From positions 1-24,802 of IMG/VR virus record IMGVR_UViG_3300030451_005413: a stretch of DNA of 24,802 nucleotides; one strand, given 5' to 3'. The stretch is from a virus. Positions 10,477 through 24,802 of this stretch are shown here, one piece after another. The first letter of the stretch is position 1. The number at the start of each line of letters is the position of its first letter. A program made the position numbers and the translations under genes. The notes beneath the pieces were generated by a model that saw only the letters and a list, made by a program, of their open reading frames with translations, was not told the DNA's origin and made no database searches.

Positions 10477-11376
10477 TCAACGCCTAAAAGTCTTCATAGC
10501 TCCCTGAGCAAAGTCGCCCAGGATGCTGTCTAAAGAGGTGGGATCGGTCCACCGACGAGTACGAGGTTTTGCATTCTCAGGTGCAGGCGCGGGCGCTTCT
10601 CCTTCCACCACAGCGGCGGACGGGCTGTGAGCAGCCTGAGGCTCGGGCTCGGGCTCAGGTACCGGCTCCGGGGCTGGACGTAGTTTGTACAGGTCCTTGG
10701 CGGTCTTGAGCGCCGTCTCCGTGTCCAGGCCCTTGTGTACCAGTTCCGCAGCGACGGCCATGGTCTCCAGCCCACCATGACGAAAGCCCAACTCCAACGC
10801 CTCGTCGGGGTCGAAGCCCATCTCGGCAACCATGTCAATGGCTCCCTTGATGACGTCACCACCCTGCTCACGGTCAGCCTCCAGTTCCTTCTCCCACTTA
10901 CGTTCAACGTAAGTCAGGTACTGCTCGTTAGACCGGGTCGCGTGGTCCTCGAACTGCTCCTTGTACCCGTCCCGCTCCTTAGCCACCTCGTCAATGACCT
11001 TGGCCTTGTTCCGTAGCTCTGTTTGAAGCTGCTCGATGCGCGTCTCGAACTCCTGATACTTGTTCGGGTCGTCTTCGCGCAGCATCTGGTTCCAGAGCCT
11101 CTGGTGATGCTCCGCCTTGCTCTGCCAATCCGTGACAAGAGCCTGAAGCTCCTCGCGCTCCTTGCTGATGCGCTCAGCCGCGACCCGACCAAAGTTTCGA
11201 TGCTCCTCAGGCAGAGCGTCCACGTCATTGAAGTCCCAGGTGCCAAAGTCATAGGGCTCTGACGCCGGGGCTTCCGAGGCTTCCGAGGTCTCGGGCACCT
11301 CCACCTCAGGCACGGCGACCTCCGGTGCCTCCACCTCAGGTGCGGCTACCTCTTCGGTCTTGATCTCGTCTTCCAT
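10477..11376 (-). CDS. Capsid scaffolding protein (299 aa)
   Basis: ATG (11374-11376) has GAGGAGGGAAC upstream. Residues 1-45 are an acidic Glu/Pro/Val/Ala tract with VPEVEVPETSEAS-type repeats. Residues 65-165 are a long charged helix predicted as coiled coil (RIEQLQTELRNKAKVIDEVA). Residues 215-265 are a Pro/Glu/Ala linker. The C-terminus is basic (ENAKPRTRRW ... AQGAMKTFRR). Acidic N-terminus, coiled coil and basic capsid-binding tail are the hallmarks of scaffolding proteins such as those of P22 and T7. The gene lies immediately before the major capsid gene, as it usually does. No protease domain is visible, so scaffold removal would be by exit or by another protease. Confidence 0.88.
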   Translation of the reverse strand: MEDEIKTEEVAAPEVEAPEVAVPEVEVPETSEASEAPASEPYDFGTWDFNDVDALPEEHRNFGRVAAERISKEREELQALVTDWQSKAEHHQRLWNQMLREDDPNKYQEFETRIEQLQTELRNKAKVIDEVAKERDGYKEQFEDHATRSNEQYLTYVERKWEKELEADREQGGDVIKGAIDMVAEMGFDPDEALELGFRHGGLETMAVAAELVHKGLDTETALKTAKDLYKLRPAPEPVPEPEPEPQAAHSPSAAVVEGEAPAPAPENAKPRTRRWTDPTSLDSILGDFAQGAMKTFRR

Positions 11377-12173: not shown

Positions 12174-14042
12174 TTAGCCACCCTGGCCGAGCAGGGGATT
12201 GGTGGTCGGATCAGGTGCGCCACCCAGTTGTGGGAACTGCGCTCCCAACTCCGTGGTAGCCTCCGCGCTGTCGTCAATGCCTTCAGGAGTGGCTTCGCCC
12301 TCCGCAGGAGGCGGCATCATGGCCTGCATCGCCTGCTTGGCCTCGTCCGGCGTGTTCAGCACCTTGCCCAGCTTCATCATGTCCAGCACCTCCGTCCAGA
12401 GGCGGCGCTGGTTGATCTCCGGGTTCTGCACGAGACTGGGCAACATCTCCATGAGGTTGCGAAGCCTGACCACGCGGTTGTCCTCATCGCCGTTGAAAGG
12501 CAGGGCCGAGAAGCTGTAGTCCCACGGGTCGTCGTCTTCGACACGGCCTTCGCCGTCGGGCATACCGAATCCGAACATGCGCCGGCCCACCAGCTGTTCT
12601 GGCGTGTCGTCCGTGACTCGAAGCGGGATGCTGGTGTCGTTGGGCATGAACTCGATGTACAGCCGAATGATGGCCTCGGCGATCCACTCAACCGAGAGGT
12701 ACAACACCTTCTGTCGCCGGGACTTGCGGGTACGGTCGGCATCGCCAGCGAGCGCGGCTTCCGTTGCCACGTCCGTGTTGCCCATCGAACCACGCGCGTA
12801 GCTCGGGATGCCCAGGGTGCGCTCTACTGACTCCAGCAACGCGGCGGTCATGCGGCTCCACTCTATTGGCATCTGAGCGACGGGGGTGTGTCCCATGATG
12901 TCGTTGATGGTGGCCCGCGGTTGCGCGGCCAGCGTAATGACGTCGTTGGGTCCCTCGGCGTTGCGAAGCTGCGTCATGAACTCCTGGGGATCATCCAGCA
13001 AGCTCTCCATGATCACGGGGATCGGGATGCCGGCGCGCAGCGCCCACATCATCAGCGTGTTCAGGGTGTTGACCTGCGTCAGCGGCGTACGCACGAGCTT
13101 CGCGTCGGACAGGCCGTTGTTGTTGCGCAGGTTGTCGTTGAACACCAGCATGTAGTACGGGTTCTTCAGCAACTGGTAAGGCAGTGGGGCCTCGTAGATC
13201 GGCTCCGACACGCCCTCGACGTAGTGGTAGAGGGTCTCGCTGACGAGGTCGTAGAACTCGTACACCGGGATCCAGTTGTAGGCCAGGGACGGCCGGCGGT
13301 CGGTGCGCTCGTACAGGCCCGATGAGTCGTGGTACCGCATCCACTGCTGGTGCTCGCCGAATGGCACCTTCTTCAGCTTGTCGGGCTCCAGGTAGTAGAT
13401 GCCTCGCCGAGACTTCTTGCTGGTCTTGACCTTGGCCATGAACTCGCCGCGGGTCATCATCTTGACCTCGCACACGTAGCGCACGTCGTCCCAGTCGGAC
13501 TGCATCTCGTCGTAGAAGATGAAGTGGGGGTTGATGACGCGCAGCCGGGGGCGGGCCTTCTTGTTGGACCACGTAACCTTGAAGAAGCACCGGGGAAACA
13601 CCCCGGCCCTCCCGGTGGCGCGCCAGAGCTTCACGGCCAGGGTCTCGCGCCGGAACACCTCATTGATGAGAGCCTGCCGAAACTTGGCAGGCCGCTCCAT
13701 GGCCTTGCGGTTGGCGCGCACCGTGACCTCGGGGTTCGGTGGGCAGACGGTGGCTACCAGCTGGTCGATGAAGGAGAACAACTCGTTGCGCTGCACGTCC
13801 TCTTCATCGGCGTCGTCCGGGTGATCGTACATGAGGACGGAGTCGTCCGTGTCCACGTCGTCCGGGCACTCCGAGCGGTACAACTGCGCATCGTGCTCCC
13901 AACCCTTCGCCTCTTCGTGGCGAGTGGTCTTGTGCATCTGGATGCAGTTGTGGATCCAGGCCCAACGCTCGTTGCGCGCCTTGCGCAGCGCTTCCTTGTC
14001 ACCCTGTTTGCGGGTGAGGATGTCTTCTACGTTCTTGCCCAC
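12174..14042 (-). CDS. Portal protein (622 aa)
   Basis: The start is GTG (14040-14042) with CTGGAGG upstream. The 622-residue length and layout fit a short-tailed-phage portal: N-terminal helices, a wing region with RLRVINPHFIFYDEMQSDWD, a stem-like region with LRNNNGLSDAKLVRTPLTQV, helices (TLNTLMMWALRAGIPIPVIM), then the typical RMTAALLESVERTLGIPSYA and TEAALAGDADRTRKSRR segments. The C-terminus is acidic and Pro/Gly-rich and likely disordered. It follows the large terminase directly and carries its own promoter, overlapping the terminase end. The portal forms the dodecameric DNA gate at one capsid vertex, to which the packaging motor and later the tail bind. Confidence 0.9.
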   Translation of the reverse strand: MGKNVEDILTRKQGDKEALRKARNERWAWIHNCIQMHKTTRHEEAKGWEHDAQLYRSECPDDVDTDDSVLMYDHPDDADEEDVQRNELFSFIDQLVATVCPPNPEVTVRANRKAMERPAKFRQALINEVFRRETLAVKLWRATGRAGVFPRCFFKVTWSNKKARPRLRVINPHFIFYDEMQSDWDDVRYVCEVKMMTRGEFMAKVKTSKKSRRGIYYLEPDKLKKVPFGEHQQWMRYHDSSGLYERTDRRPSLAYNWIPVYEFYDLVSETLYHYVEGVSEPIYEAPLPYQLLKNPYYMLVFNDNLRNNNGLSDAKLVRTPLTQVNTLNTLMMWALRAGIPIPVIMESLLDDPQEFMTQLRNAEGPNDVITLAAQPRATINDIMGHTPVAQMPIEWSRMTAALLESVERTLGIPSYARGSMGNTDVATEAALAGDADRTRKSRRQKVLYLSVEWIAEAIIRLYIEFMPNDTSIPLRVTDDTPEQLVGRRMFGFGMPDGEGRVEDDDPWDYSFSALPFNGDEDNRVVRLRNLMEMLPSLVQNPEINQRRLWTEVLDMMKLGKVLNTPDEAKQAMQAMMPPPAEGEATPEGIDDSAEATTELGAQFPQLGGAPDPTTNPLLGQGG

Positions 14043-14064: not shown

Positions 14065-14093
14065 GGTTTAACACGTTGACCGATGCCGGTCAA
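14065..14093 (-). promoter_or_regulatory. Sigma70-like promoter for the portal gene
   Basis: Minus-strand TTGACC (14088-14093), 17-base spacer ending CGTGT, and TAAACC (14065-14070). The -35 overlaps the terminase stop codon. The spacer end GTGT and the -10 3' end CC are shared with the other late promoters here. The GTG start lies 22 bases downstream of the -10. Confidence 0.5.
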
Positions 14094-16036
14094 GACTTGC
14101 GCTTGCGGGGAGCCCGCAGGCCACGGCGTCTTCGCACCCTCTTGGCAGTGCGTGCGCGCATCTTCTTGTCTCTCTCAGACAGGCGACGAAGCTCCTCGCG
14201 CTCCTCCCAGGTGAGAGGGCTCTGGTCTTGGAGCTTGAGCGCAGCCGTGGGGGAGTCGGTTGCTGCTACGATGTGGGCTGGTCTCTTCGGCGCTCTTGTG
14301 TGCTGCACCAGGAGACAGCCGAGCGCGAGCGCAGATGCACGGTCGTAGTGGCCCTTGGTTCGGCGGCCCTTGCCCACGTTACCCGGCTCCAGAATCTGGC
14401 GGCTGTCGGCTTGCTTCACGAGCTTGTCGTTGCGGTAATCGCCCAGCTGAGCGACAGTCTCGGCATCGAAGAGCCAGAGGCGCTCTTGCAGTTCGTCAAT
14501 CAAGGCACCGAGGCTCTCCTCGATAGACTGCTTGCTGGCGTGCCACCCGGGCTTGACCTTGGTGCCGCGTTTGTCGTAGTATAGGTTCTGAATCTCGCCC
14601 CGATCCAGGGAGCGCTCCAGAATGGCGAGCACTGCCAGACCAACGCCGTTGCGCTCGACCCCGATGAGGGCTTGGTTGTACTCCTTGGCCACCTCTACGA
14701 TCTTGTCGCTGAAGTCGTTCGGGGTGACGTTTGGGCAGGCGAACACGGCGGCCTGATAGACCGCGTCGCGCCACACCTCCAGCACCTGAAACGAAGCGTG
14801 GTCGTGGCCGTAGCCCGCGGGGTCCGCGGCGATAACGTAGTTAGCACCTGGGTTAGGTTTGCGATAGACCTTGTAGGTCTCGTGAGGGAGCCACGGCACC
14901 GTGATGCGGTCCTGGTGCCTCTTCAGCACGTCGCTCGGGATCACGCCACCGCCGCGCATCGCCCAGCAGCTGATGGGGTCCACCGGGTAGAACACGAAGA
15001 ACAGGTCGGGCCAGCGGCGGATTTCGGACACGTCGCGGATCGTCTGCCGCCGGAACGCGAGGTTCTCCAGCGTCAGGTAGTCCACGCAGCCCGGGTTCGA
15101 CGCCGGCATGTCGGCCCACCTCCCGTTGATCTGCGGGTGGGAGCCCCCAGGGCCGAACTTGTCGAGCAGTCGCTGCTCCTCTGTGTCGAGGGTCCACGCC
15201 GGGTCCCACTTCCTTTCGTTGAGGCGCGTCTCATAGAACGCGACGAAGGTGAACAACCAGCGACCGTGCCCTTTGCGTGCGTCGGCGCAGAGGTTCTTGA
15301 ACTCCTCGGACGAGGGCTCCGTCATGGGTGCCGGTGTGGCCTCCAGACTCAGGCGCGCCTCGGCGCGGTTCACCATCGCCGGGTAGAAGTTGAACCAGAA
15401 GCTCCCAAAGGCCGGGATGAACGGCACCTCGCTGATCTGGGTGACGTCCGGCGAGAGCCCGATGCCTTCGTTGGCGTTCTGACCCGAGAGACAGCGGACG
15501 CGACTGACCCCCTCGGGGTGGTCGTACGTGATCTGGTTGCTCTCCCGCACCGGCACGGTGGCGGGTCGCAGACGGCGCGGGCGGTTCTGGTGGCTGAGGG
15601 CAACGTAGCGGAACAGCGTCTTGGCGCGTCTGTCGTGATCTGCGATGATGAGCGCGGTCTGGCCTTCCAGCTGTGCGGCCACGTTGTCTACACAGAGCGC
15701 GTTGCACAGGCTCTTCCCGGACTGTCGCGGGCCGACAGTGATGGACCACTTGGCCATACCGTCCCCGTCGCGCGGCCCCTCGCCGAAGTACCAGAGCAGC
15801 TTGTTGTGCAGCTTCGGGCAGATAGAGTCGGGGTCGTACTTCATACGTCGGCCGGTGCGCTGGTCCACAATGGTAGCCTGCAAAGGCAGGGACACCCGGG
15901 GATCCAGTAGGTTAACGGCTCGCCGTTGTTGAGTGGTGAGCGGCGGCCGACCGTCGTCCTTCGGGCGTCCCAGGTTGTCCTTCTGGTACGCGGACTGGAT
16001 GCGTTTGCGGCTTCGACGGAGAAGGTCGTCGCTCAT
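14090..16036 (-). CDS. terL: Terminase large subunit, ATPase-nuclease (648 aa)
   Basis: I start at ATG 16034-16036, which overlaps the upstream stop as ATGA. The frame stays open further upstream but only as a shadow of the preceding gene. The N-terminal ATPase has Walker A GPRQSGKS (residues 102-109) and a Walker-B-like TQISE ending in Glu203. The C-terminal RuvC/RNase H-type nuclease has its acidic triad in AADPAGYGHDH (Asp405), GVERN (Glu461) and HYDRASALA (Asp565). The last 40 residues are very basic (RARTAKRVRRRRGLRAPRKR). All key residues are present, so the enzyme should translocate DNA into the prohead and cut it. It lies between a triple-HTH gene and portal. The packaging type (headful, cos or direct repeats) cannot be told from this. 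Confidence 0.95.
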   Translation of the reverse strand: MSDDLLRRSRKRIQSAYQKDNLGRPKDDGRPPLTTQQRRAVNLLDPRVSLPLQATIVDQRTGRRMKYDPDSICPKLHNKLLWYFGEGPRDGDGMAKWSITVGPRQSGKSLCNALCVDNVAAQLEGQTALIIADHDRRAKTLFRYVALSHQNRPRRLRPATVPVRESNQITYDHPEGVSRVRCLSGQNANEGIGLSPDVTQISEVPFIPAFGSFWFNFYPAMVNRAEARLSLEATPAPMTEPSSEEFKNLCADARKGHGRWLFTFVAFYETRLNERKWDPAWTLDTEEQRLLDKFGPGGSHPQINGRWADMPASNPGCVDYLTLENLAFRRQTIRDVSEIRRWPDLFFVFYPVDPISCWAMRGGGVIPSDVLKRHQDRITVPWLPHETYKVYRKPNPGANYVIAADPAGYGHDHASFQVLEVWRDAVYQAAVFACPNVTPNDFSDKIVEVAKEYNQALIGVERNGVGLAVLAILERSLDRGEIQNLYYDKRGTKVKPGWHASKQSIEESLGALIDELQERLWLFDAETVAQLGDYRNDKLVKQADSRQILEPGNVGKGRRTKGHYDRASALALGCLLVQHTRAPKRPAHIVAATDSPTAALKLQDQSPLTWEEREELRRLSERDKKMRARTAKRVRRRRGLRAPRKRKS

Positions 16037-16704
16037 GCGGGCTCCGTGTACGCGGAGATGAGAGGCTTGATGTGTTCTGCTTCGAGGTCCGTGGAGTCCG
16101 CTATGAACCCGAAGGTGGCTCCGTACACCCAGAGGCGCACCGCGTGTCCGACCGGCGTCTCCGCGTCCAAGGCCACGCCGTCCACGTTGAGCTTCTGCCC
16201 GTGTAGCGGAGTGTAGGTCTTGTTGGTCGCGACCCGATAAACGCCCTTGTAAGGCAAGAACAGGGCAGCGGCGATGAAGCCCACGCTCTGCTTGAGGACC
16301 TCGTGGCGGTACCGAATCTCGGCCGCGATGTCCTGGTTGATCTGGCCCTCCCGCACCGCCTTGCCTCTGCGCGTTCCGTTCTCCACCTTGGCCGTCCAGT
16401 TTTCCTTGATGTGCTGGATGGTGCGGAGGGTGACGTCGTGCTTCCGGGCAAGCTTCATAAGAGTCGCGCCGTAGCAGATGAGATGGGCGATCTTGACTCT
16501 CTGCTCGACAGTCAGCTTCCGATTCCGTGGCCGCCACGCTGTCTGGGTCACCACGCGGTTCTCGTTGAGGGGCACCAGATCACCGGAAACTATCCGGGTG
16601 ATGGTGGACACGGTGTAGCCGAAGTCCCGGCTGACCTCGTACAGGGGCTTCTTGTCGTTGAGAACGGCGTAACGCACATCGGCGGCGTCGTCGCGGCTAA
16701 TCAT
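16033..16704 (-). CDS. Triple helix-turn-helix protein, candidate terminase small subunit (223 aa)
   Basis: ATG (16702-16704) overlaps the upstream stop as ATGA with GGAG nearby. Three similar helix-turn-helix units are visible at residues 5-42 (VSRDFGYTVSTITRIVSGDL), 65-104 (LMKLARKHDVTLRTIQHIKE) and 125-166 (VGFIAAALFLPYKGVYRVAT). The remaining 55 residues are a C-terminal domain (HAVRLWVYGATFGFIADSTD). Its position directly before the large terminase is where the small terminase subunit normally lies, and small subunits recognise DNA through HTH domains. But a chain of three HTH units is also seen in regulators and in the DNA-binding parts of homing enzymes, so the call is tentative. Confidence 0.55.
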   Translation of the reverse strand: MISRDDAADVRYAVLNDKKPLYEVSRDFGYTVSTITRIVSGDLVPLNENRVVTQTAWRPRNRKLTVEQRVKIAHLICYGATLMKLARKHDVTLRTIQHIKENWTAKVENGTRRGKAVREGQINQDIAAEIRYRHEVLKQSVGFIAAALFLPYKGVYRVATNKTYTPLHGQKLNVDGVALDAETPVGHAVRLWVYGATFGFIADSTDLEAEHIKPLISAYTEPA

Positions 16705-18123: not shown

Positions 18124-18177
18124 GCATCCACGCCGGCTGGCGGGTAACTCTCAGTACGTCAGTTCCGGTGTGGATGC
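18124..18177 (-). terminator. Hairpin at the end of the 266-aa gene (possible terminator)
   Basis: A 13-bp inverted repeat with one mismatch pairs 18124-18136 (GCATCCACGCCGG) with 18165-18177. The right arm lies inside the last codons of the 266-aa gene and the stop codon is in the loop. Read on the minus strand it is followed only by TTGG, so it is not a classical intrinsic terminator. It could protect a 3' end or limit read-through into the next promoter. Confidence 0.35.
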
Positions 18178-18951
18178 TCTATACCAGCCCTTGACACCAG
18201 AGGTCACCAGCGTGCGCTCCAATGGGGTGTAGGTCGAGCACGGCACCCACGGCAAGCGCGGTAGCTCTCGGAGTTTGTGCGCGGTCCATAGCCGAGGGTT
18301 CAGGGCTTGCCTCCACTGCCTACCGGACCTGCCCATCGGATCCCGCAGGAACTCCTCCCTCTGCACCACCCTCGACATGAGCGAATCTCCGGTGTACGGC
18401 AAGGCAACACCACGAAAGTCTGGGCGGCAGGCGTACACCACAAAGGGGATGTCCTCGCACAGATTACGGACGCCCTCCACGGCCAACTCCAACTCCTCGT
18501 CCTCCAGGTCGAAGCCGTGCGCGAGCGCTGTGAGTTCAGGCACGCCGGCCATCCGGCCGTACTTGCGCTCCGGGCGCGACACCTTAGGAAAACAGCCGTA
18601 GCAAAAGTCCAGCGGTGACAGAGTCACACCGTAAACCCTCCACTCCTCGTCCACGGCCGCGGGCCAGTAACGTGGAGCCCGCAACCCTTTGTCGCTGTGG
18701 AGCCAATCTTCGAGGGCTCGGTTGTGGTTGATCAGTCTCTCCCAGGCTCGCATGTTCTTGGGCCTGCTCACATTACTCTCCAGGCGACCCCCACCGCCCC
18801 TGCCGGTGCTGTGGGCAGGTTTGATCCGCCACCCCTGTGATTGCCAGAAGGGCATGAGACTCGTCGGCGTTACACCCGTCGTCATACCTGCCCTGCGGAT
18901 GGTGAACTGCGTCAGCGGGTCTCGTAAATCGCCTCTCTTGTCCTTCGGCAT
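18151..18951 (-). CDS. Protein of unknown function at the head of the late block (266 aa)
   Basis: I chose the ATG at 18949-18951, with GGGAGG nine bases upstream. A GTG at 19059 in the same frame lacks a ribosome-binding site. The protein is basic at its N-terminus (MPKDKRGDLRDPLTQFTIRR). The middle has EEWRVYGVTLSPLDFCYGCF, with two nearby Cys, then an acidic helix (FDLEDEELELAVEGVRNLCE) and IPFVVYACRPDFRGVALPYT. The C-terminus is basic and aromatic. No known motif is recognised. It is the gene next to the central non-coding region and is separated from the following genes by a hairpin and a promoter, so it probably forms its own transcription unit. Confidence 0.75.
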   Translation of the reverse strand: MPKDKRGDLRDPLTQFTIRRAGMTTGVTPTSLMPFWQSQGWRIKPAHSTGRGGGGRLESNVSRPKNMRAWERLINHNRALEDWLHSDKGLRAPRYWPAAVDEEWRVYGVTLSPLDFCYGCFPKVSRPERKYGRMAGVPELTALAHGFDLEDEELELAVEGVRNLCEDIPFVVYACRPDFRGVALPYTGDSLMSRVVQREEFLRDPMGRSGRQWRQALNPRLWTAHKLRELPRLPWVPCSTYTPLERTLVTSGVKGWYRASTPELTY

Positions 18952-19040
18952 GCCCTGCGTCCTCCCAGGCGCGAGCCTAACCCGCTGCGTAGCAGCGGAC
19001 CACCCACCGGAGTGTCTCCCCGCGACACGAGCGCAGGGCT

Positions 19041-19415
19041 TGTCACTCGTAAATGACACGCATATTCAGCCGCGAAGGTAGTAATATTTGCGTTTGTCCG
19101 CCCCGTGTCCGTCCCGTGTCACTTTTGACTGACACGCTAAACGCAGTTTGGCCGTGCATTAAATGCCATTTGTCCAAATGTCAGCCGATTTTGGAAACTC
19201 TATAGGGGTATATATATACACACTTTATTATTTACGATTTTTAGCCCTAATCTATTTTCTCGCGTGTAAAAGTTGAGAAGGGTGACAAATGGACAAACGC
19301 GAACTAACCCAGGTTCAAAGCCGAATAAGCGTGTCACCTTAGGTGACACGGGAAATGACAAATCGACTTACAACCTGCGTTTAGCGTGTCACTTGCATTT
19401 TGCAAAACTGACACG
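19041..19415. other. Candidate replication origin or multi-operator: TGTCA/TGACA inverted repeats around an AT-rich tract
   Basis: Four inverted repeats with half-site (CG)TGTCA/TGACA(CG) occur at 19041-19061 (8-base spacer), 19115-19137 (8), 19330-19350 (7) and 19385-19415 (17, itself holding a TTGCA-TTT-TGCAA-like dyad). The third has 10-base arms CGTGTCACCT around one central base. Between them, 19194-19259 is AT-rich (TATATATATACACAC, TTTATTATTTACG) and contains ATATACACA, one base from a DnaA box. Iteron-like sites, an AT-rich tract and a DnaA-like box together are typical of origins. They could equally be a cluster of operators for a phage repressor. No gene is supported here. Confidence 0.4.
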
Positions 19416-19441
19416 CCTCCGGCTCCGGTGGGCTATTCGCG

Positions 19442-19568
19442 ACGTATTAAGGTGTCCACTTCGGCTATGATGCCGCGGCGCTGCGCTCGGGGCGCTGGCC
19501 CTGGTGGGTACGAGGCGCATCTGACATACGGCTGCCCTAATAAGCTACATGACCCCACGTATTAAGGT
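19442..19568. repeat. Direct repeat ACGTATTAAGGT, two copies 115 bases apart
   Basis: ACGTATTAAGGT occurs at 19442-19453 and 19557-19568. The bases between and after them hold GC-rich stretches, a GGGGTACCCC palindrome near 19601 and A-runs, but no gene with a ribosome-binding site. Confidence 0.5.
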
Positions 19569-19682
19569 CTCAGGGCAAAAAAATAGCGCGTATTGTCGAT
19601 GGGGTACCCCTTCGGAAAAAAAATCCCAAAATCCCGAGACCGCCCTCTCCCCCCCTCGGGCCGCGGCGCGCGCGCGAAAACG

Positions 19683-19712
19683 CTTGCATGCTGCAAGTGA
19701 TAACGATTCTCA
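19683..19712. promoter_or_regulatory. TTGCA dyad plus Fur-box-like site, copy 1
   Basis: CTTGCATGCTGCAAG (19683-19697) is followed directly by TGATAACGATTCTCA (19698-19712). The second part differs from the Fur core TGATAATNATTATCA at two of 14 defined positions. A second copy lies 102 bases downstream. No gene start is adjacent. Confidence 0.5.
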
Positions 19713-19784
19713 CTTGAGGGGACTTCGTGTCTTCGTGACACCATGGGGGGGATAGTGTCGGCGTGACACCATGCCCCGTGATCC

Positions 19785-19814
19785 CTTGCATTATGCAAGT
19801 GATAATGATTCTCA
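19785..19814. promoter_or_regulatory. TTGCA dyad plus Fur-box-like site, copy 2
   Basis: CTTGCATTATGCAAG (19785-19799) is followed by TGATAATGATTCTCA (19800-19814). The latter differs from the Fur core at a single defined position. The two 30-base copies agree at 27 positions. Differences inside the TTGCA dyad fall at its centre, so the arms are conserved. CGTGACACCATG, itself present twice (near 19734 and 19763), lies between the copies. Confidence 0.55.
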
Positions 19815-19829
19815 ATACGGTGCGGGTCC

Positions 19830-19864
19830 GTGTCCCGTGTCCCGTGTCCCGTGTCCCGTGTCCC
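19830..19864. repeat. Five tandem copies of the heptamer GTGTCCC
   Basis: Five perfect GTGTCCC units in a row, preceded by a partial unit and followed by GTCC. The heptamer shares GTGTC with the half-sites found further left. It could be a protein-binding array or a slippage product. Confidence 0.9.
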
Positions 19865-19870
19865 GTCCTA

Positions 19871-19978
19871 TTGAACAGGGTTCAACAGTGGAGACATGGT
19901 CAACCGGGTTGACTATCCCCGGCCTATGCAAGAAGCATGCCACACCCCACCACGGGGGCAAGAACTACAGCTGTAGTT
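19871..19978. repeat. Cluster of short palindromes
   Basis: TTGAAC-AGG-GTTCAA (19871-19885), GTCAACCGGGTTGAC (19899-19913) and AACTACAGCTGTAGTT (19963-19978) are perfect dyads within 110 bases. Between 19979 and 20296 I see no further strong dyad and no credible gene. Confidence 0.6.
19899..19919 (+). repeat. Direct repeat copy 1: GTCAACCGGGTTGAC followed by TATCCC
   Basis: This 21-base element recurs identically at 20297-20317. Its first 15 bases are a perfect palindrome with one central base. It resembles a dimeric repressor operator. Confidence 0.7.
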
Positions 19979-20296
19979 TTGAGCCGTTTTCGCGTGTAGG
20001 CGACTTTCCAGGGTTCTGAATGGTACGGATCGCCTGCAAGGGTTCGGTGCTCTGGGGGTACCCTGACAGTCCAGCAAACCCTATATGTCGCAAGCCTGCA
20101 CGCTCTCTTCATTTACCCTATTCGCCGTTTCCGTCCCACTATTCACTAACCCCTGGCACGACTTTTGCATGGGGGCTTAGTGGTACGCTACCTCTAACCG
20201 GTACACACCATCTTTTGCCTCTGTTCGGTATCTTTCTGCTTGACAGTCTGGACGGAACGTGTAACGCGCGTGCCCTTTCCCCCCAAAAGAGAGGTA

Positions 20297-20317
20297 GTCA
20301 ACCGGGTTGACTATCCC
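20297..20317 (+). repeat. Direct repeat copy 2: GTCAACCGGGTTGAC followed by TATCCC
   Basis: Identical to 19899-19919, including the non-palindromic TATCCC tail, so the two copies have a defined orientation. Confidence 0.7.
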
Positions 20318-20349
20318 GGCCCGGCCGGACATGCGACATGGAATACACG

Positions 20350-20798
20350 ACAAAGATGTCGTCTACTTATGTGCTTGAAATCCCTCGGTTTTCACATCCC
20401 CTTGACATCTACACTTGTAGTAGACGACTACGAACGGCTTCGTAGTTGACCTGTCAAGGGCAGATAAGTGCGTGAAATCACCCGGTTTTCTGGTGTGTCC
20501 GGTGCCTCATCTCGTCTATTGTTCCGCGGTGGTCGATGTTGTAGACGAATCGCGACATGGATGTCACGGTTTCGAGGGGTCGAAACCTCGTCGGCCACCC
20601 CGATGAATACGACATGTCACGGACGAACGCCGACAATGACCGCGACATTGATGTCGCAGTTGGGGGGTCTGTCAAGACTTCATGCCACGTCGCCAGATGT
20701 TGGCGTTTGTCCTGCACTTTTGAGAAAGTCAGAGAAAGTTATCTACTCACGAGTAGACAAAAGGGCCGTTTTCGGGCCCCGGGCATGACATAGATGTC
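20350..20798. repeat. GACATNNATGTC dyads, four dispersed copies
   Basis: Copies are at 20350-20360 (one imperfect position), 20554-20565 (GACATGGATGTC), 20644-20655 (GACATTGATGTC) and 20787-20798 (GACATAGATGTC). Three of the four are preceded by CG or CGCG-type sequence. GACATGTC at 20611-20618 is a related palindrome without spacer. A GGTTTCGA-GGGG-TCGAAACC hairpin (20568-20587) lies among them. The last copy is five bases upstream of the -35 of the promoter proposed for the large RNA. Confidence 0.6.
20371..20490 (+). other. Three-way-junction-like fold flanked by direct repeats
   Basis: Arms CCCTTGACA (20399-20407) and TGTCAAGGG (20452-20460) enclose two hairpins: CTACA-CT-TGTAG and ACTACGAA-CGGC-TTCGTAGT. 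Together they can form a closed three-way junction. On either side lies a 23-base direct repeat with the core TGAAATC and CGGTTTTC (20371-20393 and 20468-20490; 20 of 23 bases identical). The unit could be a structured RNA, a cruciform replication signal or a recombination site. No protein is encoded. Confidence 0.5.
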
Positions 20799-20802
20799 CC
20801 GG

Positions 20803-20832
20803 TTGGCACGGTTTCACGGTGATCTATATCAC
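20803..20832 (+). promoter_or_regulatory. Promoter-like sequence with CRP-like dyad, upstream of the large RNA
   Basis: TTGGCA (20803-20808), a 16-base spacer and TATATC (20825-20830) resemble a sigma70 promoter. GTGATCTATATCAC (20819-20832) overlaps the -10 and differs from the CRP core GTGATCTAGATCAC at one base. A bound CRP-family protein here would be expected to block polymerase. An alternative -10, TATAAA at 20833, has no -35 at usable distance. Confidence 0.4.
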
Positions 20833-20836
20833 TATA

Positions 20837-22028
20837 AACGCCGATGAACACGGGGTGGCACGGGGGTGGTATGGCCCGTGCTATATGGGTTGGCATCACA
20901 CGACATACCCGGCTGCCTTCCTTGACACGCTCTCAAGCTGTCATCTGAGGAAATCTCTCAAGATTATTCTTGACGCTCTTCGGCAACCGGCATAGCTGTC
21001 CTTCATCAGACAGTGAACGCGGGCCTCTCCGGTGAGGGGCACAAAGCTCAGCCACACGATGCTGAGCAAGCCGTCCTAACAGGGCGCAGCGGTCCCGACG
21101 GGAACCGGACTTTGACAACCCCACCTTCTCATTCATGACCGGCCGGTCATGACCCCTCCTCAGGATGAACCTGAGACGCTGGGGACCCGGCCGGACAGGA
21201 TGGTCCGATGACTTAAAGTCACGGTCTATCCTTGGTTATTCGGATTCAAGACGAGCCCCGTAGCGACACGCTTTCACGCTGTCAAGCGGGGTAGTGATAG
21301 AACAGGATGAACCCGGGCTTACAAGCCCTTATGGCAGGGTTCGCGGTCGGTGACTTAGACCTTAGGGGGAGATGTCCCCTAACAATGTGGCTTTGTATCA
21401 CGTTGCAACGGGTCAACCGGCCATCTCGATTAACGCTGTAGCTCAGCGGGTTACGCTTTCAAGCTGACTTTTCGGGACATAAGAGTTAAACATCAGCGAC
21501 CTACGGTGTGCAAGCCGGACATGGGAGCGCTCAGAAGCAAGCATGCTTAGCAGCATGACGACGATCTATCCGACGGATTAACGGCCTCACCGACGCACCG
21601 CGTATACGGTCGGGATTCACAACATCTAAGGTCTATGTCAATGCCTCAGGCTTGACGGTGATACAGTGTTGCCCTTTCAGTGGATTGATGACGATAACCG
21701 AGGTTAGATGCTTGCAAAAGGGACGTTGGAAGGTGGGGTGTTGAGGTCGCGGTCTGCGGTCTTTGAAATCTTAGATGCTACGGGTACCGAGGGGGACGGC
21801 TAAGCCGCTTAACCTGAGGATGAGGCGGCTTAGTCGCTCGGTACGCTGATAGCTGAAACAGCCGGTCTGGTACCCGGCGCTGCAATCCCGCAGCAAACTC
21901 CCCACTAACACTCACCGAGCGTCACCGTCTAAGCTTGCTTATCAGCATGCTGCCAGCGCTTTCCAGCCTTGACGGTGACGCTCAACATCTACCGCACCGA
22001 CCGCGCTCTCTTGCCGGTCGGTGCTTTT
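20837..22028 (+). ncRNA. Candidate giant structured non-coding RNA (about 1.19 kb, GOLLD/ROOL-like)
   Basis: The stretch has no credible gene but is packed with perfect hairpins: TCAAGA-TTAT-TCTTGA (20958-20973), GCTCAGC/GCTGAGC (21046-21067), a 20-bp palindrome (21133-21152), CTCAGG-ATGAA-CCTGAG (21159-21175), a stacked GAACCC/GGGTTC plus GGGCT/AGCCC pair (21309-21342), TTAGGGG/CCCCTAA (21362-21382), CATGCT-TAGC-AGCATG (21542-21557), a two-stem hairpin GTACCGAG plus CTAAGCCGC (21784-21844), GCTGC-AATCCC-GCAGC (21879-21894) and a 13-bp stem (21917-21929 with 21971-21983). Long-range pairs also fit (21356-21365 with 21626-21635). One hairpin motif occurs three times. The region ends at a strong terminator and starts after a promoter-like site. 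Phages are known to carry large ornate RNAs such as GOLLD and ROOL; I cannot match this one to either. The 5' end is approximate. Confidence 0.6.
21994..22028 (+). terminator. Intrinsic terminator of the large RNA
   Basis: A 10-bp perfect stem pairs 21994-22003 (GCACCGACCG) with 22015-22024 (CGGTCGGTGC), loop of 11 bases, followed by TTTT. It closes the structured region and precedes the first plus-strand gene by 54 bases. Confidence 0.85.
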
Positions 22029-22082
22029 ACTTATGATTTCTGGCTGTGATTTACAGCATACAACCCTGACAATGGAGTGAAC
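22025..22082 (+). promoter_or_regulatory. Leader cassette A with hairpin, before the 127-aa gene
   Basis: After the terminator T tract come ATTTCTGGCT, a hairpin GCTGT-GATTT-ACAGC, CATACAACCC and a GGAG ribosome-binding site before GAACATG. The same order, with a changed but still paired hairpin, occurs before the 218-aa gene. A promoter may be embedded: TTTTAC, 17 bases, GATTTA is the best fit, but it is weak. Confidence 0.55.
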
Positions 22083-22466
22083 ATGCAAGGACGAACCAAG
22101 AAAGACGGCCGCGATACCCTCAACAAACGCGCTCAGCGGCGCGTCGCCGCCATAGCTGAGGCCCTGCTCGGCGAGCGTGACCCCTGGAATGAGATGTGGG
22201 CGGTGTCCGACTACACCGTCATCGTCACCGCCGACGATGCGTCGGTGAAGGCCACGCTCCCCTGGCTCATCGAGTGGTCCAAGGACCGTTCGAAGGAGGG
22301 CCGGATGGCCATGACCCGGGCGTCTACCCGTGTGCGGGTCCAGATTAGGGCACCCGGGTGCCCCACCAAGTGGTTGTTGCCGAAGGAGGCCGTGGCTGTA
22401 GCCACGGCCATCACGGCCGTGGCACCGGCCGAGCCGGACTTCTCGGGTGAGGGGGGTCAAGCTTGA
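22083..22466 (+). CDS. Small protein of unknown function (127 aa)
   Basis: I chose the ATG at 22083, placed after GGAGTGAAC exactly as the next gene's ATG follows GGAGGGAAC. A GTG two codons upstream is the alternative. The N-terminus is basic and helical (MQGRTKKDGRDTLNKRAQRR). The middle has a strand TVIVTADDASVKATLPWLIE, then VRVQIRAPGCPTKWLLPKEA and a C-terminal Ala/Val helix. No family is recognised. It is the first gene of the plus-strand block, lies between two terminators, and so probably has its own transcript. Confidence 0.75.
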   Translation: MQGRTKKDGRDTLNKRAQRRVAAIAEALLGERDPWNEMWAVSDYTVIVTADDASVKATLPWLIEWSKDRSKEGRMAMTRASTRVRVQIRAPGCPTKWLLPKEAVAVATAITAVAPAEPDFSGEGGQA

Positions 22467-22470
22467 CCCC
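22453..22470. repeat. Perfect 18-bp palindrome over the stop codon of the 127-aa gene
   Basis: GGGGTCAAGCTTGACCCC is a perfect palindrome that includes the TGA stop (22464-22466). It precedes the terminator and may bind a dimeric protein. Confidence 0.7.
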
Positions 22471-22484
22471 GTGCCGCCCATAGT

Positions 22485-22524
22485 CCCGCCCGTCGTCTCT
22501 ACTTTGCAGACGGGCGGGGCTTTT
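22485..22524 (+). terminator. Intrinsic terminator after the 127-aa gene
   Basis: A 10-bp perfect stem pairs 22485-22494 (CCCGCCCGTC) with 22509-22518 (GACGGGCGGG), loop of 14 bases, then GCTTTT. It ends the transcript of the 127-aa gene. Confidence 0.9.
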
Positions 22525-22576
22525 GATATACATTTCTGGCTATTATTAGCATACAACCCACACAACAGGAGGGAAC
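22521..22576 (+). promoter_or_regulatory. Leader cassette B with hairpin, before the 218-aa gene
   Basis: Same order as cassette A: T tract, ATTTCTGGCT, hairpin GCTA-TTAT-TAGC, CATACAACCC, ACAACAGGAGGGAACATG. Between A and B the hairpin keeps pairing although the fourth pair changes from G-C to A-T and the stem loses one pair. Best embedded promoter guess: TTTTGA, 17 bases, TATTAG. Confidence 0.55.
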
Positions 22577-23233
22577 ATGACCGCGAAAGACCGGTTCATG
22601 GACCTTGACAGCGACCTCTGTGAGGTCGTCACCGCCCGCTATGCGGGCTACCTCATCGACGGCTACGATGCCGTCGGATGGTACCAGCGTGAGGCAGGGG
22701 CGGTCGCCGCCCTTGCCAACCACGTCGGACTTGACCCGGTGTGGCTCGCCGGCCTCACGGCCGCGCTCAGCCCCGTCATCTCTGTCAAGGGGAACGCCTT
22801 ACGCGTTCTCCGGGCCATCCAGGCATGGCAGTCCGGTGCTACCTGGGAAGCCGCCGTGGCGGGGCTTCCCTGCACGCCAGGGTCGGTCAAGACCCATGCC
22901 TTGGCCTTCCTGGCCAAGGGCTGGCAGGGGCTCGGCCCCAAGACCGGCCCGTTCGGTCGAAACCTGTCCGGGCAGGGTGTCCACGTCACCGTGGACACCT
23001 GGATGTGCCAAGCGGCCGGTGTGCCGCACGCATCCGTCGCCCGCTCCTCATCACCGGAGCGGCTGGCATGCGAGGCGGCATGCGCTGCCCTTGCCGATGC
23101 CCTGGACATCCAGCCTGCAGCCGCTCAGGCGGCTGTCTGGTACGGCGTACGCCGTGCCAAGGGTGTGAAGGATAGCCGCGACAGCTTGGCTGAGGTCTTC
23201 GCCGCATGGATGGCGGGGACGTTGGCCCTCTGA
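22577..23233 (+). CDS. Phage protein resembling the DUF7178-type family (218 aa)
   Basis: ATG (22577) follows GGAGGGAAC. The protein is helical. Landmarks are ALSPVISVKGNALRVLRAI (residues 63-81), SVKTHALAFLAKG (103-115), VHVTVDTWMCQAAGVP (135-150) and AAQAAVWYGVRRAKG (182-196). From memory this pattern (ALSP with a following Asn, K..AF, VDTW or VDRW, QA.VW) is shared by uncharacterised phage proteins often labelled DUF7178; the helical layout with an 'aD.W' core recalls HhH-type DNA glycosylases. I cannot confirm either. It has its own leader and terminator upstream and is followed by the repeated three-hairpin leader. Confidence 0.7.
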   Translation: MTAKDRFMDLDSDLCEVVTARYAGYLIDGYDAVGWYQREAGAVAALANHVGLDPVWLAGLTAALSPVISVKGNALRVLRAIQAWQSGATWEAAVAGLPCTPGSVKTHALAFLAKGWQGLGPKTGPFGRNLSGQGVHVTVDTWMCQAAGVPHASVARSSSPERLACEAACAALADALDIQPAAAQAAVWYGVRRAKGVKDSRDSLAEVFAAWMAGTLAL

Positions 23234-23323
23234 CCCAAGGCCGAAACGCCGGCTATGCCGGTGTCGTAGGGTGAGACCCTGCCTGACGATGGCCGTCAGC
23301 AACAACGAAAAGCGAGGTACAAA
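23234..23323 (+). promoter_or_regulatory. Three-hairpin leader repeat, copy 1
   Basis: Hairpins: ACGCCGGC-TAT-GCCGGTGT (23246-23264), AGGGT-GAG-ACCCT (23268-23280) and CTGACG-ATGGC-CGTCAG (23283-23299). Then an unpaired A-rich stretch and GCGAGGTACAAA before the GTG start. Copy 2 is nearly identical, though the flanking genes are unrelated. Confidence 0.75.
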
Positions 23324-23644
23324 GTGGATATCATCAGCACCGTTTATCGTGGCACCTGCCGGGGACTGTTGGAAAGCCGGTTCCATCACGACGTTGGGTA
23401 TTTCCTGCCCTCCGTCGTCGTCATCAAGGGCGATGGCATGGAGGCCGACACATTGGAAGTCTTCAACAGCAACCTACACACCGGACTGCTGGATCGCCTT
23501 CACGCCTGCTGGGCGGGCGAACTCGACACCTGGGGTGTCGAGGTCATCGTCACGTACTCCTCCTTGCTGGGTGCGGACGTCGTCATCGTCACGATGACGG
23601 GCACCTGGGATGGTGAGGGGGAGGTGGCTTATGACGTGCTTTGA
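23324..23644 (+). CDS. Small acidic protein of unknown function (106 aa)
   Basis: The start is GTG (23324), in the context GAGGTACAAAGTGGA shared with two later genes. The protein reads MDIISTVYRGTCRGLLESRF, then alternating strands (YFLPSVVVIKGDGMEADTLE, VEVIVTYSSLLGADVVIVTM) and an acidic end. It looks like a compact alpha-beta protein with no motif I recognise. Its stop overlaps the next gene by 14 bases. Likely a small early or host-takeover protein. Confidence 0.75.
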   Translation: MDIISTVYRGTCRGLLESRFHHDVGYFLPSVVVIKGDGMEADTLEVFNSNLHTGLLDRLHACWAGELDTWGVEVIVTYSSLLGADVVIVTMTGTWDGEGEVAYDVL

Positions 23645-23855
23645 AAGGGCCAGCGATGGCCGCGCCCGTGTGGTCGGGTCTCACGACCCACGCGGGCAGA
23701 TGAACGGCTTTGGGGGCGTGGTGTACACGCTCGCCGTGGGTGAGGCGTGCTACCGCGATGCCCTGTCTGCCCTGGGGCGTCGGCACCGCCGACGTATCGA
23801 AGTAGTCACTGGCCCCTGCACCCATGAGTGTGAGTGGTGCGGAGGCATCGACTGA
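23631..23855 (+). CDS. Small protein with C-terminal Cys cluster (74 aa)
   Basis: ATG (23631) follows GGGGGAGGTGGCTT, which lies within the preceding gene's end. The frame is open further upstream, but without a site. The protein is basic, with GFGGVVYTLAVGEACYRDAL and RRHRRRIEVV, and ends in GPCTHECEWCGGID. The C-x3-C-x2-C cluster may bind zinc together with a nearby His. Family not recognised. It is co-transcribed and translationally coupled with the 106-aa gene. Confidence 0.7.
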   Translation: MTCFERASDGRARVVGSHDPRGQMNGFGGVVYTLAVGEACYRDALSALGRRHRRRIEVVTGPCTHECEWCGGID

Positions 23856-23944
23856 CCAAGGCCGAAACGCCGGCATAGCCGGTGTCGTAGGGTGAGACCC
23901 TGCCTGACGATGGCCGTCAGTAATCATGAAAAGTGAGGTACAAA
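23856..23944 (+). promoter_or_regulatory. Three-hairpin leader repeat, copy 2
   Basis: It keeps all three hairpins of copy 1. The loop of the first hairpin is ATA instead of TAT. Most other differences are in the unpaired stretch before the ribosome-binding region (TAATCAT versus CAACAAC). It ends in GTGAGGTACAAA before a GTG start. Confidence 0.75.
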
Positions 23945-24205
23945 GTGGAAAAGTTCAGCTTTGAGAAGAAGCTCGTCGAGCTTCACGGCGAGGATGTATG
24001 TCAGGCCCTGCGCTTCAAGGCGCAGGTCATCGACACCCTGGCGTCCCTGCCGGGGGGACGCGGCCACGTGTCCGTGTTCCTCGCCGCCTGGACGGAGGGG
24101 GGATGGGAGCACCTGTCCCCCTGGGGACACAGCTACACGACCGGCGCGTGGGGCCTTTTCAAGGCCGCAAACGCCTTCGTGCTTGGGAAGGAGGAGGAGG
24201 TATGA
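23945..24205 (+). CDS. Small protein of unknown function (86 aa)
   Basis: GTG (23945) is chosen because it sits in the repeated GAGGTACAAAGTGGA context. The protein starts MEKFSFEKKLVELHGEDVCQ, continues with a helix (LRFKAQVIDTLASLPGGRGH) and an aromatic second half (WTEGGWEHLSPWGHSYTTGA), and ends in an acidic stretch. Stop and next start overlap as ATGA. No family is recognised. Confidence 0.7.
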   Translation: MEKFSFEKKLVELHGEDVCQALRFKAQVIDTLASLPGGRGHVSVFLAAWTEGGWEHLSPWGHSYTTGAWGLFKAANAFVLGKEEEV

Positions 24206-24387
24206 AGTCCAAGGCATGGAGCCGTGCACGGCTCCACGTCGGGGATAACCCCGGCGGTCGGCGCTTCTTGAAGCGTCACCGGGCACGGTGGGCACGTCGT
24301 CGTGCCCGTCAGGCCCTTGCCTCCGGTCAGTGGGAGATGCTCGCCCCTCGGGAGCGCCTCCCGACGGGAGAGCGTGAGTTGTTCTGA
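24202..24387 (+). CDS. Very basic small protein (61 aa)
   Basis: ATG (24202) overlaps the previous stop (ATGA) and has GGAGGAGGAGGT directly upstream, a strong site. The protein is extremely rich in Arg and Lys (FLKRHRARWARRRARQALAS), which suggests nucleic-acid binding. It is too short to assign. It is coupled to the 86-aa gene. Confidence 0.65.
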   Translation: MKSKAWSRARLHVGDNPGGRRFLKRHRARWARRRARQALASGQWEMLAPRERLPTGERELF

Positions 24388-24424
24388 CCGTAGGCCGAAA
24401 CACCGACTAAAAGCGAGGTACAAA
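24388..24424 (+). promoter_or_regulatory. Short leader repeat, copy 3 (lacks the hairpins)
   Basis: It has AGGCCGAAAC, then ACCGACTAAAAGCGAGGTACAAA before GTG. Both ends match copies 1 and 2, but the roughly 50 bases with the three hairpins are missing, as after an internal deletion. Confidence 0.65.
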
Positions 24425-24718
24425 GTGGAAAACATGAAGTGTATCATGGAACCCCGCCCCATGTGGGGCGAAGAGCCAACCAACGGCGGACGGCCGGTGC
24501 CGTCGTTCTTGGCGACCGTCAAGGCCATAACTGAGGCCGTCATGGCCCACACGGGCATCCCCACCCGCTGCGAGGCGGGCGAGGTCACCATCATCCTCCG
24601 TGAGGAGGGTGAGGTGCCCAGGGTCATGACCCTGGACGACGCGGTCACCGAGTGTGACCTCACGGTCGCACTGTACGTTGACGGGTTTGGCACCGTCAAC
24701 ATGACCAACAACTACTGA
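24425..24718 (+). CDS. Small protein of unknown function (97 aa)
   Basis: GTG (24425) in the GAGGTACAAAGTGGA context gives MENMKCIMEPRPMWGEEPTN. An ATG three codons later is the alternative. The middle is a helix (FLATVKAITEAVMAHTGIPT), followed by strands (EVTIILREEGEVPRVMTLDD, LTVALYVDGFGTVNM). It is probably a small alpha-beta protein. No family is recognised. Confidence 0.7.
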   Translation: MENMKCIMEPRPMWGEEPTNGGRPVPSFLATVKAITEAVMAHTGIPTRCEAGEVTIILREEGEVPRVMTLDDAVTECDLTVALYVDGFGTVNMTNNY

Positions 24719-24734
24719 ACTACTGAACTACTGA
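24711..24734 (+). repeat. ACTACTGA tandem repeat, three copies at the gene end
   Basis: Three perfect ACTACTGA octamers start inside the last codons of the 97-aa gene. The first holds its stop; the others lie in the intergenic gap before the next ribosome-binding site. Confidence 0.85.
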
Positions 24735-24744
24735 GAGGGAAGTT

Positions 24745-24802
24745 ATGACCGATATCGATACCGTCTTCGGGCTCACGTCCGAAGTCGCGAGCCGAGCGGC
24801 TC
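24745..24802 (+). CDS. Start of a further gene (partial, N-terminus only)
   Basis: ATG (24745) follows GAGAGGGAAGTT. The visible residues are MTDIDTVFGLTSEVASRAA and the frame is open to the window end. Nothing can be said about function. Confidence 0.6.
   Translation, partial: MTDIDTVFGLTSEVASRAA

Follow-up and report, generated by a model that had tools for sequence, protein, structure and literature searches.

A gene-free region with a compact 3′ domain, a candidate non-coding RNA unit, beside hammerhead-type-II elements in a divergent phage

The locus and its relatives

The window, meaning the whole stretch of DNA that was analyzed, is a 24,802-nt fragment given by an IMG/VR virus record. 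Its left arm is transcribed leftward and carries the genes for the terminase (14090-16537), the portal (12174-14042), an amidase endolysin and an HNH endonuclease. The right arm is transcribed rightward from 22077 and holds small genes: the first of them (22077-22466, plus strand) encodes a 129-aa protein that belongs to no family, and the DUF7178 gene follows at 22577-23233. A gene for a 302-aa protein lies at 18151-19059, and the stretch 19060-22077 is devoid of credible genes. Judged by its proteins, the phage is divergent: among 50,697 records of a phage collection, the portal and the putative capsid protein had zero matches, and the terminase found matches of just ~21-28% identity.

Relatives were sought through the DUF7178 protein, the 302-aa protein, the terminase and the portal, and these protein searches led to two true kin only, L008 and L009. 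The latter (8,280 nt; terminase ~70% identical) was traced by aligning the terminases of the window and L008, and it is the sole relative that extends into the non-coding region. A third sequence, L003, was discarded as an unrelated long protein, and L004-L007 as chance matches to a 19-mer.

The non-coding DNA falls into two parts. The first, at 19060-20836, is structured alike on both strands and has an origin- or operator-like appearance, with an AT-rich tract and TGACA/GACAT dyads. At its beginning (19060-19420), the AT-rich TATATATA tract is flanked by repeated TGACA/TGTCA dyads, an origin-like arrangement, and L009 has an AT-rich tract with TGTCA repeats similar in kind at 1750-2110. Closer to its end (20553-20800), dyads of the GACAT-N-GATGTC type are repeated at 20553, 20641 and 20787 in an operator-like manner. 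In L009, the homologue of the 302-aa protein is followed by ~1.16 kb of dyad-rich DNA bearing an AT tract, and then by a rightward gene; the contig end of this relative (1-165) is a tandem array of the hairpin unit CCCCCCTACCGGGGGGCATCCTTGCGACCGCCCCG.

The second part, at 20837-22028 on the plus strand (the start is approximate), is the candidate non-coding RNA unit, so designated for its lack of genes, its fold energy and its strand asymmetry. The longest start-codon ORF lying mostly inside it has 67 aa, and neither an annotatable ORF nor a codon-phase GC signal was found there; this speaks against a hidden gene or pseudogene and bears out the preliminary description, which had seen no credible gene. 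No counterpart of the candidate was found in the syntenic L009, so that the candidate is either lineage-specific or was lost in that relative. The search for nucleotide homologues that had been proposed returned none in the phage and plasmid collections.

The right end of the candidate is well marked. A strong hairpin spans 21994-22024 (10 perfect pairs, loop of 11), with CTTTTACTT directly after it; together they form an intrinsic-terminator-like element that ends in CTTTT (21994-22028, plus strand), exactly where a terminator had been described. The automatic scan did not list this hairpin because its loop exceeds 8 nt. The tail of the terminator merges with a leader element (22024-22066, plus strand) composed of ATTTCTGGCT, a small hairpin and AGCATACAACCC. 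This terminator-leader cassette recurs at 22520-22559, after the gene at 22077 and before that at 22577, and its small hairpin differs between the two copies (GCTGT/ACAGC and GCTA/TAGC). Since the same cassette follows both the candidate and the gene at 22077, the candidate sits where a transcription unit would. An IMG/VR search with the exact leader element gave no match. As for the left end, the promoter-like start of the preliminary description was not confirmed: a scan for the sigma-70 consensus around 20837 found no promoter, and the TTGGCA/TATATC-like letters near this position are weak.

Folding and strand preference of the candidate

How structured is this region? Compared with dinucleotide shuffles, as had been proposed, its plus strand folds better than chance, at z -5.6 to -6.2 (-6.17 with 24 shuffles, -5.59 with 26); for the minus strand, z lies between -3.4 and -3.9. 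Perfect Watson-Crick stems are in excess as well: there are 8 of at least 6 bp vs 2.33 expected (reached by 1 of 200 shuffles), and 5 of at least 7 bp vs 0.61 in shuffles (reached by none of 200).

The structure is mostly in the last 260 nt of the candidate, near the terminator. The local z is -2.0 at 20837-21120 and -3.0 at 21100-21399, rises to +1.0 at 21400-21699, which is thus without structure above chance, and drops to -7.32 at 21770-22030 (MFE -124.3 vs a shuffle mean of -87.6, which none of 200 shuffles reach; z -5.86 on the minus strand). With a range from +1.0 to -7.3, the description of an RNA that is ornate throughout must be abandoned. By its energy relative to shuffles, the stretch 21770-22030 (plus strand) is a compact 3′ domain made of strong hairpins, a closing helix and the terminator. 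The partition function places in it an extended hairpin at 21777-21853 (plus strand) with two stacked segments of 15 and 14 bp (mean P 0.84 and 0.92), and a 13-bp stem devoid of G-U pairs at 21917-21983 (plus strand; inverted repeat I5), with a mean P of 1.00, encloses 41 nt.

Other elements of the candidate are less telling. Long-range complementarities, which had also been reported, are present: 59 bp are predicted with confidence (P>0.8, span of at least 300 nt), and one of the long-range helices of the predicted fold joins 21104-21129 to 21728-21753. They are no better than in shuffles, and these helices were rejected as evidence because 6 of 24 shuffles carry as many confident pairs of this span. 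A 21-nt hairpin with a bulged C, a GCU/AGC upper stem and a YUCA loop occurs in three plus-strand copies, at 20923-20943, at 21264-21284 (degenerate, with two mismatches) and at 21449-21469 (with a compensated lower stem). Two of its pairs are altered on both sides; 50 of 500 shuffles reach this covariation, and three sequences are too few to be given weight. Overall 8-mer repetition is high, although single frequent 6- and 7-mers such as AGGATG stay within the shuffle maximum.

A more informative property is the difference between the two strands. Watson-Crick dyads fold equally well on both of them, whereas selection on an RNA can exploit G-U pairs and so favor one strand. In the candidate, the plus-minus difference is -36.5 kcal/mol vs -9.6 ± 7.8 in shuffles (z -3.44; reached by none of 26). 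This asymmetry is absent from the adjoining 19640-20831 (z -0.06) and returns at 22080-23271 (z -2.69). In 600-nt windows, z is +1.47, -0.14 and +0.45 before ~20837, and -2.30 and -0.17 after it; the asymmetry of the candidate comes mainly from its first half (z -2.3), the second half alone giving -0.17. The change of sign at ~20837 supports a plus-strand RNA start roughly at the position that the preliminary description had given. As the preference for the plus strand is found in the candidate and is lacking in the DNA immediately upstream, a plus-strand RNA running to the 22.0-kb terminator is favored.

The same comparison bears on a different reading, in which the region would have no RNA function and would be made of DNA-level sites, such as palindromic operators or sites for replication or packaging, continuous with the dyad-rich 19.06-20.84 kb. 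Inverted 8-mers are indeed in excess over the whole of 19060-22028 (z 6 to 12), the origin-like AT-rich tract and repeats are common to L009, and the candidate contains a perfect 20-nt palindrome, TCATGACCGGCCGGTCATGA, at 21133-21152, which is assigned to no strand and for which an exact IMG/VR search gave no match. However, with such sites the two strands should fold equally well, which is true of the upstream DNA and not of the candidate, and the terminator and the 3′ domain have the orientation of an RNA. A purely DNA-level explanation is therefore considered improbable, and a plus-strand RNA remains the preferred one.

Hairpin-rich genes and hammerhead elements in the right arm

An excess of hairpins is also found outside the candidate, both upstream of it and downstream. 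In the coding right arm (22077-24802, plus strand), perfect stems of 7 bp or longer occur 21 times in 2.7 kb vs 2.15 expected, a density of 7.7 per kb vs ~0.8 per kb in shuffles, and pieces of 1.2 kb fold at z of about -9 to -12. The 19 kb of the left arm show no excess of such stems. With synonymous-codon shuffles, which preserve the protein and its codon use, z is -6.35 for the DUF7178 gene, -3.5 for the gene at 24428 and -2.85 for that at 23945; in the left arm, eight of the nine segments compared fall in the range of -1.3 to +1.8, the exception being the gene at 10480 with -2.4. The perfect hairpins of the preliminary description are thus real and above chance, but they are not specific to the candidate, the coding right arm having as many or more. 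It is the right half of the window that is dense in hairpins, and therefore this density cannot alone mark an RNA gene. The density may serve to protect early mRNAs or result from a mutational process.

The leaders of the genes at 23324 and 23945 contain a 104-nt repeat that matches the full Rfam model Hammerhead_II (RF02276) with 26.7 and 26.4 bits, scores that fall under the Rfam gathering score of 37. The two hammerhead-type-II elements are at 23239-23301 and 23860-23922 on the plus strand, 621 nt apart, and both have the core letters GAAA, GUC and CUGACGA. The same element is found between small genes in the Streptomyces phages Quantum and Frankenweenie and in the Burkholderia phage Maja. 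In a comparison of five copies of equal length, both partners are altered in 9 of 18 pairs; the covariation, which is strong in stems I and III, scores 0.611 vs 0.232, and none of 500 shuffles reach it. On this comparison of copies, the two predicted hammerheads are a firmer result than the non-coding RNA candidate.

The likeness to the type II hammerhead (RF02276; PMC3088659) includes the core GAAA, GUC and CUGANGA, the covarying hairpins I and III, and a position between phage genes like that described in prophages (PMC3088659). The elements differ from it by an extra U after A9, by a stem II fixed as GGCC/GGCC, by an invariant 3′ GUCA(G) able to pair with the core, and by scores below the gathering cut-off. 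The stretch CUGACGAUGGCCGUCA is kept in 7 of the 7 copies found, an invariance that is partly by construction because the search pattern required it, and its 3′ end might base-pair with the core. Similarly, CUGACGAUGGCCGUCAG, seen in the window at 23283-23299 and in L010, L011 and L012, is kept in the copies read, the later ones coming from a pattern that required it. Its 3′ GUCAG is outside the hammerhead consensus and can pair with the catalytic CUGAC, a pairing that might be an off switch. A third hammerhead copy, decayed to GGCCGAAAC only, lies at about 24392.

What would these elements do? Perreault et al. (2011) found that hammerheads flank prophage genes and proposed a role in transcript processing (PMC3088659). 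The predicted cleavage after 23265 and 23886 would free a 621-nt mRNA of two genes, which fits this proposal.

Known large RNAs and readings of the candidate

The preliminary description had linked the candidate to GOLLD, ROOL, OLE and HEARO, and this kinship was not recovered. Rfam covariance models gave no match at the gathering score, nor when the region was searched by itself with E values as high as 10, and the matches to PtaRNA1 and mir-999 were dismissed as chance. GOLLD RNAs are frequently, though not absolutely, located near phage tRNA genes; the 24.8-kb window, itself a fragment of a genome, has none. GOLLD, a large non-coding RNA carried by phages and prophages, is conserved in its 3′ region and more variable in its 5′ region, and the candidate resembles it in that its 3′ part is also the strongest (PMC12286853); it differs in having no covariance-model match, no nearby tRNAs, no relatives and no long-range architecture above chance. 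From ROOL, another large non-coding RNA found in phages (PMC12286853), it differs by the lack of a covariance-model match and of a tRNA island. A multimeric cage with intermolecular kissing loops is a further mark of ROOL. OLE and HEARO are likewise large structured bacterial RNAs, but again the candidate gives no match to their models. It does share with the general kind of the stand-alone, terminator-ended phage RNA that it is non-coding, structured above shuffles and closed by an intrinsic terminator.

What remains of the structured-RNA reading is a plus-strand transcript running to the terminator, which is best supported by the asymmetry and the 3′ domain. On these grounds, 20837-22028 is tentatively regarded as a lineage-specific non-coding transcription unit or RNA with a compact 3′ domain, matching no Rfam family, a reading whose probability is put a little short of even. 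The observations behind it are the absence of genes, the excess of hairpins, the plus-strand fold bias, the 3′ domain and the terminator-leader cassette, to which the three copies of the bulged-C hairpin may be added; the points against it are the non-specific hairpins, the chance-level long-range helices, the lack of a homologue, the lack of the region in L009, the lack of a recognized promoter, the strand asymmetry confined mostly to the first half and the hairpin-copy covariation that shuffles also reach. The candidate would be the first of the rightward units of the phage. Its plus strand would presumably be transcribed from the regulatory region around 20.8 kb, with a putative 5′ end there, and the transcript would be released at the 22.0-kb terminator. 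The resulting RNA, up to ~1.2 kb long, would be loosely structured in its 5′ part and compact in its 3′ domain, the latter probably stable and resistant to nucleases, and it may act in trans during early infection as a regulator, a decoy or a scaffold.

Might the region instead be a long structured 5′ leader, with read-through from ~20.8 kb and with the 22.0-kb terminator as a conditional attenuator or antitermination gate before the gene at 22077? It immediately precedes the first rightward gene, the terminator-leader cassette recurs ahead of the second unit, and strong structure runs on into the mRNA; yet a leader of 1.2 kb would be very long, and no Rfam leader or antitermination element is matched, so that this arrangement is judged unlikely. 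Less probable still is a functionless structure left by a mutational or selective hairpin-making process across the coding and non-coding right half, as suggested by the right-arm stems (21 vs 2.15), the 1.2-kb pieces folding at z -10 or below, the score of the DUF7178 gene (-6.35) and the left arm free of excess, since a mutational process would neither respect strand nor end at the left arm, and the 3′ domain is far stronger than the middle of the candidate and is placed at the terminator.

The lineage-specific transcription unit thus remains the preferred reading, and its consequences depend on the transcript. Should there be none, the case would be a caution that hairpin counts and shuffled-energy scores alone cannot single out a non-coding RNA beside higher-scoring coding sequence. 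If the transcript exists, it would be a large phage RNA outside the families described in Rfam, adjoining early genes whose unusually structured mRNAs seem to be cut by ribozymes. A bolder and doubtful proposal is that the candidate represents a new large phage RNA family, lineage-specific and with a compact 3′ domain, and that, together with a hairpin-dense rightward transcriptome partly cut by hammerheads, it would form an early program centered on RNA structure in a dsDNA phage. If true, this phage would offer a testable case for RNA structure organizing the early infection of a DNA phage.
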